From positions 1-22,018 of IMG/VR virus record IMGVR_UViG_3300020428_000109: a DNA stretch of 22,018 nt, one strand, 5' to 3'. Below the pieces are notes generated by a model. The model saw nothing but the letters and a program-made list of their open reading frames with translations. It searched no databases and had not been told where the DNA came from. The position numbers were made by a program, and so were the translations under genes. This stretch comes from a virus. The first letter of the stretch is position 1, and each line of letters begins with the position of its first letter. Below, in pieces: positions 7,989-13,841 of this stretch.

Positions 7989-8799
7989 ATATAAAGCATT
8001 TGAAAGGATATTTCACTCATCAGAAGACAGTGCTGAAGACGTATCAAGAATCGAAGAAAAATTAAAATATCACAACAAAGAGTGCTATGAGAGACAAGAA
8101 CCTATCTCTTTGAGTTGGTACTCTACAGACGATGAACAAACTTATCAAAACAATCTTACAAAACGCCCAGAGATGTTGGAACAATATGGGTGGAAAGACT
8201 ATCGTATTGATTACAATTTGAATAAGTGGGGATTTCGTGAGAGTGATTTTAATTTGGAATACCACCACGAGAACATAATCGCTACGGGCGAGTGTTTTAC
8301 ATTTGGTACAGGTTTGAATGAAGGTCAAATATGGCCCACTATGGTGGAGTGGGAAACAGGAACAAAGGTGTGGAACTTGGGATTGCCCCTTGCCCCACTT
8401 GATGTCACGTTTAGGATTTTGTATAGTTGGTTACCTGTACTAAAACCCAAACAAGTTTTATTATTAGAGAACAGTCAACTCGCTAGAGAAGTGTGGATAG
8501 ACGAAACGCCAGAACCGATTGGGTTCTTCTCACCAGAACATGAGACATGGAAACGTGCGTTGGCAGAAGACAAAGCGGAGAGATATATCTCTCGACAGAA
8601 AAATTTGATGGCGATAAACGAATTGTGTGCTGAAGAGGGTGTAGAACTACTAACTATATCCGCTTCTGAAAGACATGATATTGGTATGAAAGCTTGGGAA
8701 ACTAGTGAGGGACAAGAGTTTGCTCTATGTAGAGACCTCATGCATCCAGGCTTTCATTTCCAACGTGCCATCGCTGATAGGTGGTTAGAGGAACTATAA
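7981..8799 (+). CDS. SGNH/GDSL-like protein with Cys at the nucleophile position
   Basis: A 272-residue protein. At residues 100-113 the segment IIATGECFTFGTGLNEGQ aligns with block I of phage SGNH-like proteins, whose usual form is G-C/D-S-x-T-x-G. Here the motif reads G103-E104-C105-F-T107, so the Ser is replaced by Cys (codon TGT). VWNLGLPLAPLD fits block II. D252-L-M-H255-P-G at the C-terminus fits block V with the catalytic Asp-His pair. SGNH enzymes are esterases or acyltransferases, so a Cys may make this a thioesterase-like enzyme or an inactive relative. The start is GTG at 7981, overlapping the end of thyX by 8 bases, with GGAG at 7969-7972. The stop overlaps the nrdA start (TAATG). 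The N-terminal 90 residues are not recognised. Confidence 0.65.
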   Translation: MSRYKAFERIFHSSEDSAEDVSRIEEKLKYHNKECYERQEPISLSWYSTDDEQTYQNNLTKRPEMLEQYGWKDYRIDYNLNKWGFRESDFNLEYHHENIIATGECFTFGTGLNEGQIWPTMVEWETGTKVWNLGLPLAPLDVTFRILYSWLPVLKPKQVLLLENSQLAREVWIDETPEPIGFFSPEHETWKRALAEDKAERYISRQKNLMAINELCAEEGVELLTISASERHDIGMKAWETSEGQEFALCRDLMHPGFHFQRAIADRWLEEL

Positions 8800-10598
8800 T
8801 GCCAAAAAGAGAATACCAAGGTATCTTTATTGATACCGCTAGAGACCAGTTGTTTGATAAATTGGGTCTACAAAGATTAAAAGAAAGTTACATGAAAGAA
8901 GAGGAAGAGTCTCCGCAAGAAAGATTTGCCTTTGTATCCAAGACATTTTCTAGCAATTTAGAACATGCTCAAAGATTGTATGAATATTCAAGTAAACACT
9001 GGTTATCGTATTCAACACCCATACTCTCATATGGTAGGTCAAAACGTGGTCTGCCTATTTCTTGTTTTTTAAATTACATCGATGACACTGCGGAGGGATT
9101 AGTTGAAAACTTATCAGAAACAAATTGGCTCTCTATGCTTGGCGGTGGTGTGGGTATTGGGTTTGGCATTAGGGCCGCTGATGATAAGTCAACTGGTGTC
9201 ATGCCTCACCTCAAAACCTACGATTCCAGTTCCTTGGCATATCGACAGGGACGCACCAGAAGGGGTAGTTACGCCGCTTACCTAGACATCTCTCATCCAG
9301 ATGTCACAGTTTTCTTGGAGATGCGTAAACCAACAGGTGACCAAAACTGGAGATGTTTGAATCTACATCATGGTATCAATATCACTGACCGATTCATGGA
9401 ATTAATTGAACGGTGTATGAAAGACCCCGATGCTGATGATAGATGGAACTTGACTGACCCACACACAGGTGAAGTCAAAGATACTGTATCAGCGAAAGAC
9501 CTTTGGCAAAAGATACTAGAAATGCGTATGGAGACAGGTGAACCATATATTCACTATATCGACACCAGTAATAGGCACCTACCAGAGTTTCAAAAAGAAT
9601 TGGGACTGAGAATAAATCAGTCAAATTTATGTTCGGAAATTATTTTACCTACAAATGAGAAGAGAACAGCAGTATGTTGTTTATCCTCAGTGAACTTAGA
9701 ATATTATGACGCATGGTCGAGAGACAATATGTTTTTGAAAGATGTGGCAGAGATGTTGGACAATGTATTACAGTTCTTCATCGACAACGCACCAAAACAA
9801 GTTTCACGAGCGGTTTACTCTGCTACCCAAGAAAGAAGTATCGGTATCGGTGCTCTTGGTTTCCATGCTTACTTACAGAAGAAAAACATTCCTTGGGAAT
9901 CTGCTATTGCCAAGGGTGCTAACATGAGAGTATTTCGACTTATAAGGAGTAAATTGGATGAAGCAAACTTATCAATCGGTAAAGAAAGAGGCGAAGCTCC
10001 TGATGCTAGAGGCACAGGAAGGCGGTTTAGTCACGTTATGGCTATTGCTCCCAACGCTAGTTCTAGTATTATTATGGGAAACACCTCGCCAAGTATTGAA
10101 CCGTATCGTGCGAATGCTTACAGGCAAGACACTCTTTCTGGAGCGTATCTCAATAAGAATAAGCATCTGGATGGTATCATTAAAAATAAAGTATCGAGCA
10201 GTGATGAAGTCAATTATGACGAAATATGGTCATCGATAATATCCAATGATGGGTCAGTTCAGCATCTAGATATTTTGAATGAGCAAGAGAAATCCGTGTA
10301 CAAAACTGCCATGGAGATTGACCAGCGATGGTTGATTGAACTTGGTGCTGACCGTCAAGCATTTATTGACCAATCGCAGTCTCTTAATTTATTTTTCAGA
10401 CCAGACGCAAATATCAAATATCTACATGCAGCCCATTACCTTGCTTGGAAACAAGGTCTCAAGACATTATACTACTGCCGCTCAGAGAAATTGGGGAAGG
10501 CTGATAAAGTGTCGAAGAGAATTGAACGACAGGCAATCAAAGAGATTGATTTTCAAAGTATGATAGATGGTGATAATTGTGTTGCATGTGAAGGATGA
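8799..10598 (+). CDS. nrdA: Class Ia ribonucleotide reductase large subunit, no ATP cone
   Basis: A 599-residue catalytic subunit that reduces ribonucleoside diphosphates to deoxyribonucleotides with NrdB. Active-site residues are visible: C89 (LPISCF), N276-C278-E280 in NLCSE, C293 in AVCCLSS (redox partner of C89), radical-path Y558-Y559 (TLYYCRS) and the C-terminal electron-transfer pair C594/C597 (CVACEG). Compared with E. coli NrdA (761 residues) the first cysteine sits about 135 residues closer to the N-terminus, so the N-terminal ATP-cone activity regulator is absent. The frame is open to 8781, but ATG 8799 overlaps the previous stop as TAATG with GAGG about 8 bases ahead, the usual layout here. 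The queC-like gene starts within its last codons. Loss of the ATP cone should make the enzyme insensitive to dATP shut-off (inference). Confidence 0.95.
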   Translation: MPKREYQGIFIDTARDQLFDKLGLQRLKESYMKEEEESPQERFAFVSKTFSSNLEHAQRLYEYSSKHWLSYSTPILSYGRSKRGLPISCFLNYIDDTAEGLVENLSETNWLSMLGGGVGIGFGIRAADDKSTGVMPHLKTYDSSSLAYRQGRTRRGSYAAYLDISHPDVTVFLEMRKPTGDQNWRCLNLHHGINITDRFMELIERCMKDPDADDRWNLTDPHTGEVKDTVSAKDLWQKILEMRMETGEPYIHYIDTSNRHLPEFQKELGLRINQSNLCSEIILPTNEKRTAVCCLSSVNLEYYDAWSRDNMFLKDVAEMLDNVLQFFIDNAPKQVSRAVYSATQERSIGIGALGFHAYLQKKNIPWESAIAKGANMRVFRLIRSKLDEANLSIGKERGEAPDARGTGRRFSHVMAIAPNASSSIIMGNTSPSIEPYRANAYRQDTLSGAYLNKNKHLDGIIKNKVSSSDEVNYDEIWSSIISNDGSVQHLDILNEQEKSVYKTAMEIDQRWLIELGADRQAFIDQSQSLNLFFRPDANIKYLHAAHYLAWKQGLKTLYYCRSEKLGKADKVSKRIERQAIKEIDFQSMIDGDNCVACEG

Positions 10599-11211
10599 AT
10601 TAGAAAAACTAATACCAATAAATAAAAAGATTGCGGTGGTTGTGAGTGGTGGCTGGGACTCTGCCGTTCTCTGGTATATGACTAAATCCATATGCCTCGC
10701 TAGAGAACAAGAGTGTAACCCATTCACAGTCCCAAAAATTGATGGGGCCGTCCACTACGCAAACAAGGTGTTAGAGTGGTCTTGCCGAAGACTCGATATA
10801 CCTGTAATCAGTACGACAATAGTAGGACAAATTACCTCTGATAATCCCTCTGACTATGTAACGAGCGGAGCATATGAGATTTTTGAGAAGGGGTATGCAG
10901 AGTATCTACTGAATGGAATGAATAAGTATCCCCCCATGCAACGAGAGATGTTGCCTGAGGGGTATCCTCTTCCCAACGATAGATGGGAACCTAAACCAGA
11001 ACACAAGGAGTATGTAGGGCATCCATTTGCAAACCTAACAAAAGACCAAACTATCCAGTTGGGATTTGATTTGGGGATTGCCGATGAGATTATGCCTATT
11101 ACACACTCTTGTACTGAATTGGATAGAGGACGGTGTAACACATGTTGGTGGTGCAAGGAACGAGAATGGGGTTTTAAACAAATTGGAAAAAAGGATATAG
11201 GAAATGAGTAA
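10567..11211 (+). CDS. QueC-like PP-loop enzyme (7-cyano-7-deazaguanine synthase family)
   Basis: A protein of up to 214 residues with both hallmarks of QueC. There is an N-terminal PP-loop, VVVSGGWDSAVLW (SGGxDS at 27-32), for ATP binding, and a C-terminal four-cysteine zinc site, C182-x7-C190-x2-C193-x2-C196 (SCTELDRGRCNTCWWC). HPFANLTKDQTIQLGFDLGI fits the QueC segment before that site. QueC converts 7-carboxy-7-deazaguanine to preQ0, a precursor of tRNA queuosine and of 7-deazaguanine DNA bases in some phages. No FolE, QueD, QueE or DpdA is visible here, so the substrate must come from the host or from genes elsewhere, or the enzyme acts on something else. The start is uncertain: ATG 10567 (32-base overlap with nrdA) or GTG 10588 (11-base overlap). 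Neither has a clear Shine-Dalgarno sequence. Confidence 0.75.
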   Translation: MVIIVLHVKDELEKLIPINKKIAVVVSGGWDSAVLWYMTKSICLAREQECNPFTVPKIDGAVHYANKVLEWSCRRLDIPVISTTIVGQITSDNPSDYVTSGAYEIFEKGYAEYLLNGMNKYPPMQREMLPEGYPLPNDRWEPKPEHKEYVGHPFANLTKDQTIQLGFDLGIADEIMPITHSCTELDRGRCNTCWWCKEREWGFKQIGKKDIGNE

Positions 11212-11419
11212 AGTAGTAGTACAGTATAGGGATTCATGTAGTTATTGCCATGACGCAAAGGGGTTTTTGCGAGGCATGGAAATTACGTTTGAAGAGGAGT
11301 ATCAGCCCGTAGGACAGGTGCCCCAAATTCTTGTTGATGGTAAAACAATTGGCGGATATGAAGACTTACTCGCCTTATCACAATCACAGACACAATGGGA
11401 TGAGACATTCAATGGGTAA
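11204..11419 (+). CDS. Glutaredoxin
   Basis: A 71-residue thiol-disulfide carrier. The redox motif C12-S-Y-C15 follows a beta strand (VVVQYRDSCSYC). The cis-proline signature is VPQILVDG (V39-P40), and GGYEDL is the glutathione-binding end of the fold. The length is short but complete for a minimal phage glutaredoxin (T4 NrdC is 87 residues). Its place between the queC-like gene and nrdB suggests it re-reduces the C-terminal cysteine pair of NrdA. It overlaps the preceding stop by 8 bases and nrdB by 8 bases. AAGGA at 11191-11195 serves as ribosome binding site. Confidence 0.92.
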   Translation: MSKVVVQYRDSCSYCHDAKGFLRGMEITFEEEYQPVGQVPQILVDGKTIGGYEDLLALSQSQTQWDETFNG

Positions 11420-12389
11420 ATTAACAGACGAAAGAACTTACTTCAAACCTTTTAACTATCCGTGGGCATACGAGGCTTGGTTGAAACATGAACAGTCTCA
11501 CTGGTTACATACTGAAGTGCCTATGGCTGAGGATGTCAAGGATTGGAAGAACCATCTATCAGTTGAGGAGAAAGCATTCCTCACTAACATCTTTAGATTT
11601 TTTGTACAAGGTGATGTTGATGTTGCTGGTGGATACATCAACAACTATTTGCCTTACTTCCCACAACCAGAGGTTCGCATGATGCTTGCTGGATTTGCTG
11701 CTAGGGAAGCATTGCACGTTGCCGCCTATGCACATCTAATTGAGACACTTGGTATGCCAGAGTCAACGTACAATGAGTTCTTGGAATATCAGGCGATGGC
11801 GGATAAACACGATTACTTCATGGATTTGTCAATGAAGAACGGAACAAAGGAAAGTATTGCCACAAACATTGCAGCTTTTAGTGCGTTCACTGAGGGTATG
11901 CAATTATTCTCTTCATTCATTATGTTGTTGAACTTCCCCCGACATGGTAAAATGAAGGGTATGGGTCAAATTGTTACTTGGTCTATTGTTGATGAGACAA
12001 TGCACGCTGAGTCGATGATTAAGTTGTTCAGAACATATGTCGAAGAGAACCGTGAGATATGGAATGACAAAACAAAGAGCCAGATTTATACTATCGCTGA
12101 AAAGATGGTAGAACTTGAAGACCAATTCATTGACTTGGCATTTAAGATGGGCCCGATGGAGAACTTAACAAGCGAAGAGGTGAAGCAGTACATTAGGTAC
12201 ATCGCTGACCGTAGACTTATAAGTATGGGGATGCGAGGAATATTCAAAGTGAAAAGAAATCCAGTGTTGTGGGTAGAAGAAATGATTAACGCTCCCACAC
12301 ATACAAACTTCTTTGAGAACAGAGCAACGGACTATGCTCGCGGTGCGCTTTCGGGCGATTGGGGCGATGTCTGGGGGAACGCCGCCTAA
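11412..12389 (+). CDS. nrdB: Class Ia ribonucleotide reductase small (radical) subunit
   Basis: A 325-residue diiron protein that makes the tyrosyl radical for NrdA. All ligands can be placed with the same spacing as in E. coli R2: D68, E99, H102 and radical Y106 (in EALHVAAY), then E161 (FTEGMQLF), E195 and H198 (DETMH). The D68-E99 (31), D68-Y106 (38) and E161-E195 (34) distances equal those of E. coli D84-E115, D84-Y122 and E204-E238. A normal tyrosyl-radical enzyme is therefore expected rather than a radical-free variant. The frame extends to 11331, but that stretch lies inside the glutaredoxin gene; ATG 11412, with a purine run about ten bases ahead, is the natural start. The C-terminus ends in GDWGDVWGNAA, the part expected to dock on NrdA. 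The stop overlaps the next start (TAATG). Confidence 0.95.
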   Translation: MGKLTDERTYFKPFNYPWAYEAWLKHEQSHWLHTEVPMAEDVKDWKNHLSVEEKAFLTNIFRFFVQGDVDVAGGYINNYLPYFPQPEVRMMLAGFAAREALHVAAYAHLIETLGMPESTYNEFLEYQAMADKHDYFMDLSMKNGTKESIATNIAAFSAFTEGMQLFSSFIMLLNFPRHGKMKGMGQIVTWSIVDETMHAESMIKLFRTYVEENREIWNDKTKSQIYTIAEKMVELEDQFIDLAFKMGPMENLTSEEVKQYIRYIADRRLISMGMRGIFKVKRNPVLWVEEMINAPTHTNFFENRATDYARGALSGDWGDVWGNAA

Positions 12390-12860: not shown

Positions 12861-13308
12861 ATTTGATTATGCTCATATGCAGGCCGCTGAGGTGTATGCC
12901 AACCTATCCAGTGCTAGGAGACTCCAAGTCGGTTGTGTCATAGTAAAGGAACATAAAATAATCAGTATCGGTTATAATGGTATGCCGAGTGGTTGGGATA
13001 ATGATTGTGAAGACTTTTTCCTTGACACAACATTTGCAGTGCATGAAAATGACAGAGAGATTTATGGTGAATACAAAACTAAACCCGAAGTCCTACACGC
13101 AGAGACCAACGCTATAGCGAAGGTTGCTAGAAGTAATGAAAGTGCCGTAGGTGCTACCATATATACTACCCATGCCCCATGTCTGGATTGTGCGAAGTTG
13201 ATTTATCAGTCTGGTATAAGTAGAGTGGTGTGGAAAAATCCATACAAATGTACGAAAGGATTAGAGTTCTTAGGAAGGTGTGATATCGAATGTATCTGTA
13301 TCGAATAA
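12844..13308 (+). CDS. cd: dCMP deaminase
   Basis: A 154-residue zinc enzyme that turns dCMP into dUMP, the substrate of the ThyX encoded upstream. The cytidine/deoxycytidylate deaminase motifs are clear: H85-A-E87 (LHAETNAIAK), where H85 binds zinc and E87 shuttles protons, and P-C113-LD-C116 with the other two zinc ligands. GYNGMPSGWDNDCED upstream is typical of dCMP deaminases. It is shorter than T4 Cd (193 residues), lacking part of the C-terminal tail. The start is GTG at 12844 with GAGG at 12832-12835. Its end overlaps the next gene by 19 bases. Confidence 0.93.
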   Translation: MENLTKFDYAHMQAAEVYANLSSARRLQVGCVIVKEHKIISIGYNGMPSGWDNDCEDFFLDTTFAVHENDREIYGEYKTKPEVLHAETNAIAKVARSNESAVGATIYTTHAPCLDCAKLIYQSGISRVVWKNPYKCTKGLEFLGRCDIECICIE

Positions 13309-13841
13309 AAGATTTGACAACTCAAATAGAGATGGATTTCTATCGCACGTTGTCAAAGACTGTCGATTGGTATGACCACGATATAGTACATGGAGTTGTT
13401 AAAAAAGGTACGGATGTAAGTTTCTATAAACCATCAACGAATTACAATCTCACAGTGTTGGACAGGCATCACTATCCAGCAAGTGCTATTGCCAAGAGGT
13501 ACGGTATAAAACCATCTTATGTTGCTATGGTTCACTCTGCTGGAAATACCTCTGTGGGAAAACATATAGATAATAAACTGAGACAGGTGAATTTTAGTTT
13601 TCCAATATATTATGGAACCAAGGAACACTATCGGGAAATTACATACTATGATGGAGATAGTATCGTGGAGAGTCACAAGTACGCATGGCCTTGTTTGATA
13701 AATGCAAAACAACCGCACAGTGCGTCTAACCATTATAATATTTTATCATGTATGCTACAGATATCCACAGTGCAACCGTGGGACGAGGTAGTAAACAATT
13801 TGAAAGAAAAGGGGTTGATAATTGAGACTAGTGAGTTTTGA
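13290..13841 (+). CDS. Possible Fe(II)/2-oxoglutarate oxygenase-like protein
   Basis: A 183-residue protein. The central part looks like a double-stranded beta-helix oxygenase of the aspartyl/asparaginyl hydroxylase type. H-x-D occurs in VGKHIDNKLRQVNFSFPIYY, and a later His in CLINAKQPHSASN could be the third iron ligand. The arginine that usually follows and binds 2-oxoglutarate is not evident; the segment reads YNILSCMLQIS. Either the cosubstrate is bound differently or the protein is not an active oxygenase. The gene overlaps dCMP deaminase by 19 bases, with AGGAAGG at 13271-13277 about 12 bases before ATG 13290. It overlaps the methyltransferase gene by 20 bases. Target unknown. Confidence 0.45.
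   Translation: MYLYRIKDLTTQIEMDFYRTLSKTVDWYDHDIVHGVVKKGTDVSFYKPSTNYNLTVLDRHHYPASAIAKRYGIKPSYVAMVHSAGNTSVGKHIDNKLRQVNFSFPIYYGTKEHYREITYYDGDSIVESHKYAWPCLINAKQPHSASNHYNILSCMLQISTVQPWDEVVNNLKEKGLIIETSEF

Follow-up and report, generated by a model that had tools for sequence, protein, structure and literature searches.

A QueC-like gene between nrdA and nrdB

The window analysed here is a 22,018-base virus fragment, which contains matches to a T4-type primase, an exonuclease and baseplate-like proteins, and which we read from this gene content, rather than from a classification tool, as part of the genome of a T4-like marine phage. Between the genes for the two subunits of ribonucleotide reductase it carries an intact ORF for a QueC-like protein (Table 1), which shares 32 bases with the 3′ end of nrdA and 8 bases with the beginning of a glutaredoxin gene (grx) and is followed next by nrdB, the true start of which is probably downstream of the TTG at 11331. 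This placement, already pointed out in the preliminary description of the DNA, is confirmed by Pfam and PHROG matches of the flanking genes, and about 40 related contigs of IMG/VR show the same gene order, nrdA – QueC-like – (grx) – nrdB. Further along, downstream of a dCMP deaminase gene, a 183-aa ORF (13290-13841) resembles a 2OG-Fe(II) oxygenase by eye, and yields no Pfam or PHROG match.

Table 1. Coordinates of the QueC-like gene, its sequence elements and the flanking genes in the 22,018-base window
Feature	Position	Strand	Basis or remark
nrdA, large subunit of class I ribonucleotide reductase; left boundary of cargo slot	8781..10598	+	Pfam/PHROG
QueC-like PP-loop/zinc protein, 214 aa	10567..11211	+	intact ORF; Pfam; AF2 model; dN/dS
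PP-loop SGGWDS, residues 27-32	10645..10662	+	translation
PF(x)4K element, residues 153-159	11023..11043	+	common to QueC and Cap9; P153 and K159 invariant
Predicted zinc site C182-x7-C190-x2-C193-x2-C196, followed by KEREW	11110..11154	+	cysteines invariant
Glutaredoxin (grx), second slot occupant	11204..11419	+	Pfam PF00462, PHROG 22
nrdB, small subunit of ribonucleotide reductase; right boundary of slot	11331..12389	+	Pfam/PHROG

The gene is real and is under purifying selection. Its dN/dS ratio is 0.063 in comparison with L003 and L005, the only two relatives for which it could be computed, dS being saturated in the others; synonymous changes thus greatly exceed non-synonymous ones, indicating that the gene is maintained. 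In an alignment of 38 sequences, S27, G28, G29, D31 and S32 of the PP-loop, P153 and K159, and the four zinc-site cysteines together with E198 and W201 are all invariant. Motifs were also scored in 85 family sequences and in 12 canonical controls (eleven phage QueCs and the Erwinia QueC). SGGxDS is present in 85/85 family sequences versus 0.05% of shuffled ones, and the four-cysteine pattern in 84/85 versus 0.3%, which excludes chance; the PF(x)4K element is found in all 12 controls and all 85 family members, but also in 20% of shuffles. Translation and family conservation therefore corroborate the intact PP-loop and C-x7-C-x2-C-x2-C site noticed earlier, and the spacing was rightly called almost that of QueC, being one residue shorter than the canonical C-x8-C-x2-C-x2-C.

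Profile matches and predicted fold

The Pfam QueC model (PF06508) matches the protein at 35.1 bits, above its gathering score of 22 bits, over residues 150-206 only, a stretch of 57 residues at the C-terminal end, and it detects 34 of the 38 aligned family members at E 0.01. The match to PHROG 1550 is likewise limited to the C-terminal part. TIGR00364, the NCBIfam QueC equivalog, yields 28.2 bits, as opposed to a cut-off of 150.3, and with the full-length QueC model two true phage QueCs reach 200-251 bits versus 25-30 bits for the QueC-like family, again over the C-terminal part only. A phmmer search of the PDB with the single window protein returned no match; a family profile was required, and it placed QueC and Cap9 on top (2.5e-6 and 2.7e-5, respectively).

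An AF2 model computed from the alignment of 38 relatives has a pLDDT of 87.7 and a pTM of 0.88. In VIA-align comparisons, the model is closest to Cap9 (Z 14.2, rmsd 2.8, 159 aligned) and QueC (Z 13.9, rmsd 3.4, 168 aligned), followed by LarE (Z 12.8) and QatC (Z 12.5), and Foldseek ranks QueC first. The prediction bears out the QueC-like fold proposed in the preliminary description; in this model closeness to Cap9 and to QueC is practically tied, and a common fold shows no function. Judged by its predicted fold, the protein falls, as a divergent member, into the QueC/Cap9 branch of PP-loop ATP pyrophosphatases, which bears zinc.

Loss of QueC substrate motifs and search for a deazaguanine pathway

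According to a 2026 mutagenesis study, the QueC signature consists of SGGxDS, the zinc site, YxQxHxxE, VPxRN and YPDC, with Y35, R99, Y131 and Y189 being essential (PMC13329287). The three latter motifs are absent from the window protein and, in its family, are rare or missing and no more frequent than roughly expected by chance: YxQxHxxE, which contains Y35, occurs in 9/12 controls and 0/85 family sequences; VPxRN (R99) in 12/12 and 5/85, with 3.5% of shuffles matching; and a YPDC-like motif (Y131) in 11/12 and 6/85, with 11% of shuffles matching. In a profile alignment, the GYPLPNDR stretch of the window protein (GYPxPNDR across members of its clade) falls on GYPDCRDEF of QueC. Its tyrosine, Y133, varies within the clade, however, being F or another residue in L035 and L039, and the YPDC motif was therefore counted as lost. 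As judged from these sequences, the protein is not a canonical QueC and would not recognise 7-carboxy-7-deazaguanine (CDG) in the way QueC does.

We also searched for the remaining genes of the deazaguanine pathway. The genome of the window being represented by 22 kb only, pathway absence is read from close relatives, and in three of their records of about 165 kb each (G001-G003) no FolE, QueD, QueF, TGT, DpdA or second QueC was found. DpdA was probed with phrog_887, for which there was no positive control, and with phrog_7068, which matched 3/3 control phages. Of the radical-SAM proteins of G001, seven or eight were scanned, which are of twitch-domain or B12-binding types, and none of them passes the NCBIfam QueE model. 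The canonical phage QueCs examined, in records with usable annotation, adjoin QueD, QueE, FolE, QueF or a transferase. Taken together, the lost motifs, the low equivalog score and the missing pathway genes speak against a role in deazaguanine modification of DNA, which the preliminary description had in view, or of tRNA; the alternative it allowed for, an enzyme acting on a different acid, is supported.

Two candidate indicators were set aside. PF01702 was replaced by the two PHROGs as a test for DpdA, since it misses known phage DpdA-like proteins, such as those at L282:2771-3694 (−) and L283:90-1130 (+), and is unfit to declare DpdA absent. FolE and QueD genes in remote relatives (both in G013, QueD in G014, FolE in G015) were not accepted as a sign of the pathway: they are located at a distance from the QueC-like gene, and no canonical QueC was seen in G013-G015.

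Distribution and phylogeny

A first scan of IMG/VR yielded 70 loci and a wider scan 204 relatives, the 80 best of which were carried forward. Among cultured phages (50,697 records), tblastn gave no match at E 1e-3, whether the query was the window protein or one of two remote family members, and a family query at E 1 gave weak matches only, with annotated QueC genes among them. In 84,980 prokaryote genomes the narrow pattern CWWC[KAV]ERE was not found, and a wider pattern picked up two contigs, both from Bdellovibrionales/Bdellovibrionia MAGs; such scans demand an exact motif, so that members lacking it are missed. Judging from these searches, the family appears to be a nearly virus-only branch, and we found no description of it in the literature, as represented mainly by openly readable papers. 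The two Bdellovibrionales contigs (L269 and L270), which may be prophage, bacterial or misbinned, carry their QueC-like genes inside radical-SAM islands that include a carbamoyltransferase-like gene.

In a tree of 62 rows, obtained by a quick method with SH-aLRT support only, canonical QueCs are separated from the family with 100% support, and the family comprises an nrd-slot clade (98%), to which the window protein belongs, and a sister clade (89%). The nrd-slot clade was labelled by sequence motif, and the location of its members was taken from the loci themselves.

The nrdA-nrdB interval as a cargo slot

The interval between nrdA and nrdB was surveyed in 77 loci (L166-L242) fetched by nrdA similarity, four of which do not span it. 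A QueC-like gene is present in at least 34 of them, plus L196; the interval is empty in 18 and has other contents in 21, including 2OG-oxygenase-like, IscU/IscA-type, thioredoxin, desaturase, nitroreductase-like and GIY-YIG genes, identified by a family scan in some cases and by reading the sequence in the others. In marine T4-like contigs, the stretch between nrdA and nrdB is thus a general cargo slot, or hot spot, which would account for the QueC-like gene being there. We therefore rejected the position in the nrd operon as an indicator of nucleotide chemistry, the interval being empty or occupied by unrelated genes elsewhere. It follows from the overlapping reading frames that the gene is co-expressed with the reductase, but not that the two have a chemistry in common; of the earlier proposal of co-expression with dNTP supply, the co-expression part stands, and the connection to dNTPs is weakened.

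Association with radical-SAM genes

Radical-SAM genes are present in 21/21 family-bearing records of the first set, with 8-17 of them in most of the long ones. Those records had been chosen for carrying the QueC-like gene, and a control set was therefore picked by nrdA or primase. In the latter, radical-SAM genes occur in 8/9 family-bearing versus 2/11 family-free records (Fisher two-sided ~0.005, calculated by hand and confounded by shared phage ancestry), at a density of 16 genes per ~389 kb and 4 genes per ~459 kb, respectively. After clustering at 80%, 19 of the 49 family clusters directly adjoin a radical-SAM gene, and 18 of these are among the 29 sister-clade clusters, members of which mostly reside within islands of twitch-domain radical-SAM genes; many of the linked enzymes are NF033640 twitch-domain proteins scoring above cut-off. 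The gene order nrdA – radical SAM – QueC-like – QueC-like – nrdB in L039-L041 carries the linkage into the clade of the window itself. There is no radical-SAM gene in the 22-kb window, most nrd-slot members, including the window gene, have none adjacent, and several sister-clade members (e.g. L045, L051 and L052) have none nearby.

The islands deserve a brief description of their own. Those at L081-L082 (G016), L083-L084 (G021), L085 (G018), L086 (G012) and L088 (G020) contain radical-SAM genes that are mostly of the twitch-domain type, up to 17 of them in 41 kb (G021), and some of islands L081-L086 and L088 also hold a NodU-like carbamoyltransferase and Fe-S assembly-like genes. Two QueC-like paralogues, either within one island or in tandem, are found in L085 (8680-9342 and 16641-17444), L041 (4523-5149 and 5149-5832) and L232; in the second, the motif at the C terminus is altered (FWC or CVEKEW), and the two could form a cooperating pair. 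A small cysteine-rich protein of 106-126 aa ending in EPCGMS-K and lacking a Pfam match (L086:15022-15342, L085:18581-18961) is encoded next to the second QueC-like paralogue and to a radical-SAM gene, and could be a substrate. Among cultured phages, only Vibrio phages K566 and K567 (OZ196521.1 and OZ196593.1) match one of the twitch-domain radical-SAM queries; no QueC-like gene was detected in them, and they may serve as laboratory models for these enzymes.

Possible function

We consider it reasonably probable that the protein is a non-QueC, ATP-dependent carboxylate-activating ligase, repurposed in the manner of Cap9 and QatC, and tied to a radical-SAM system; the first half of this statement, i.e. 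that it is a ligase other than QueC, is by itself highly probable. ATP would be bound at SGGWDS and used to activate a carboxylate with the release of AMP and PPi, which the fold and the conserved ATP site make the most likely chemistry, and the activated carboxylate would then be passed to an amine, as in QueC, Cap9 and probably QatC, with the zinc module playing a structural or catalytic part. The enzyme may share a pathway with the phage-encoded twitch-domain radical-SAM enzymes and cooperate with them in the modification of a protein, a peptide or a surface metabolite. A protein or peptide substrate is plausible by analogy with QatC, and so is a small molecule. As a bolder suggestion, and a rather doubtful one for now, the family could represent a third case, borne by viruses, of the QueC fold serving ends other than nucleobase synthesis, in which an ATP-dependent ligase and a battery of twitch-domain radical-SAM enzymes would make up a new phage pathway of protein or peptide modification.

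Several other readings have to be weighed against a ligase working with radical-SAM enzymes. The protein might, like Cap9, attach CDG or a related acid to a protein of the phage or the host at its N terminus, perhaps as counter-defence or as a mark on a virion protein: Cap9 is the top structural match of the predicted model, the C terminus of the sister clade, T-R-S-C-E...C-G-x-C, resembles that of Cap9, and QatC sets a precedent in which the CDG-binding Tyr/Asp pair can be lost with protein modification retained (PMC13279940, PMC13329287). The YxDC and RN motifs of Cap9 are missing here, however, and an unsystematic look at the neighbourhoods read brought to light no CD-NTase, QatB or Cap10-like partner, so that we regard this reading as unlikely. 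It is decidedly unlikely that the protein makes a small amide or thio-acid, derived from a sugar or a cofactor, as a building block for genes of the surface-polymer type, in the way of WbpG-type amidotransferases or LarE; the NodU-type carbamoyltransferases of some islands, the sugar-nucleotide and PLP-type enzymes read from sequence in some, and the nearness of LarE to the predicted model would agree with it, but the accessory genes differ between phages, and neither the LarE cysteines nor the WbpG pattern CxxC(x)6CxC corresponds to this zinc pattern (PMC13329287).

It is very unlikely that the protein has diverged strongly and yet still works as a preQ0 synthase (or CDG amidase), using host CDG for modification of phage DNA or host tRNA. 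QueC is the best curated family match, its fold ties with that of Cap9 in comparison with the model, and GYPxPNDR aligns on the corresponding QueC stretch; on the other side, Y133 is not conserved in the clade and the canonical motifs are absent, no DpdA or TGT was found for base insertion in the close relatives, the canonical phage QueCs examined adjoin deazaguanine genes and those of the family do not, and the full-length QueC model scores many times lower than with true phage QueCs. Finally, action on the reductase or on nucleotides, although the nrd-slot members form one clade that keeps its place and its overlapping frames, is to be given hardly any credence, as the interval is empty in 18 and filled with other genes in 21 of the 77 nrdA relatives and the sister-clade genes are located elsewhere.

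Two consequences may be mentioned. Phage queC genes have been counted in virome surveys as a sign of preQ0 in viral DNA (e.g. PMC9301287); since the present family reaches PF06508 and the PHROG labelled 'QueC-like' by its zinc module alone, survey counts may mix two different things. In addition, a QueC-like branch tied to the unexplained radical-SAM islands offers a specific enzyme, together with a set of partners, as a handle on the question of what the islands produce.

Comparison with known systems

With canonical QueC (7-cyano-7-deazaguanine synthase, cluster 1 of PF06508), the window protein has in common SGGxDS, the predicted four-cysteine zinc site at the C terminus, the PF/PL(x)4K element and the predicted fold; it differs in the loss of YxQxHxxE, VPxRN, YPDC and the essential tyrosine after the first cysteine, in the lack of deazaguanine pathway genes around it, and in its placement in a separate, fully supported clade. 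LarE, TtuA/NcsA, TilS and GMP synthase have the same nucleotide-binding fold (Z of about 11-13 with the predicted model), but are without the C-terminal zinc module of the QueC/Cap9 type and give weaker profile matches. As for the partners, the accessible parts of two earlier reports describe marine T4-like phages, i.e. phages of the same kind, as enriched in radical-SAM genes, with 12 in one genome (PMC5332604), and leave this enrichment unexplained (PMC5332604, PMC7029224); unlike here, no QueC-like partner is reported in those parts.

QatC of the qatABCD defence system offers an instructive parallel, as it has the QueC fold and keeps the PP-loop, has lost the same CDG-recognition motifs, does not restore the function of queC, and presumably has QatB, at its N terminus, as its target, so that it probably acts on protein (PMC13329287, PMC13279940). 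It is much larger, however (~400 aa, with N- and C-terminal extensions, versus 214 aa), has a C(x)19CGxCxxRR pattern instead of C-x7-C, and sits together with qatA, qatB and qatD, whereas the neighbours of the window gene are nrdA, grx and nrdB, with no QatA, QatB or QatD recognised. Cap9, which carries out N-terminal deazaguanylation in type IV CBASS, is similar in its minimal single-domain size, in its match to the predicted model (Z 14.2) and in PF(x)4K, and has T-Y-S-C-E...C-G-x-C where the sister clade has T-R-S-C-E...C-G-x-C, the C-E...C-G-x-C part being present in both. The Cap9 motifs Y/FxQ(x)5E, RN and YxDC are not found in the window protein, and no CD-NTase gene is adjacent to its gene. 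Recent work has revealed protein modification by QueC-type enzymes of defence systems, namely Cap9 and probably QatC; the family described here constitutes a large branch carried by phages, and thus on the side of the viruses.
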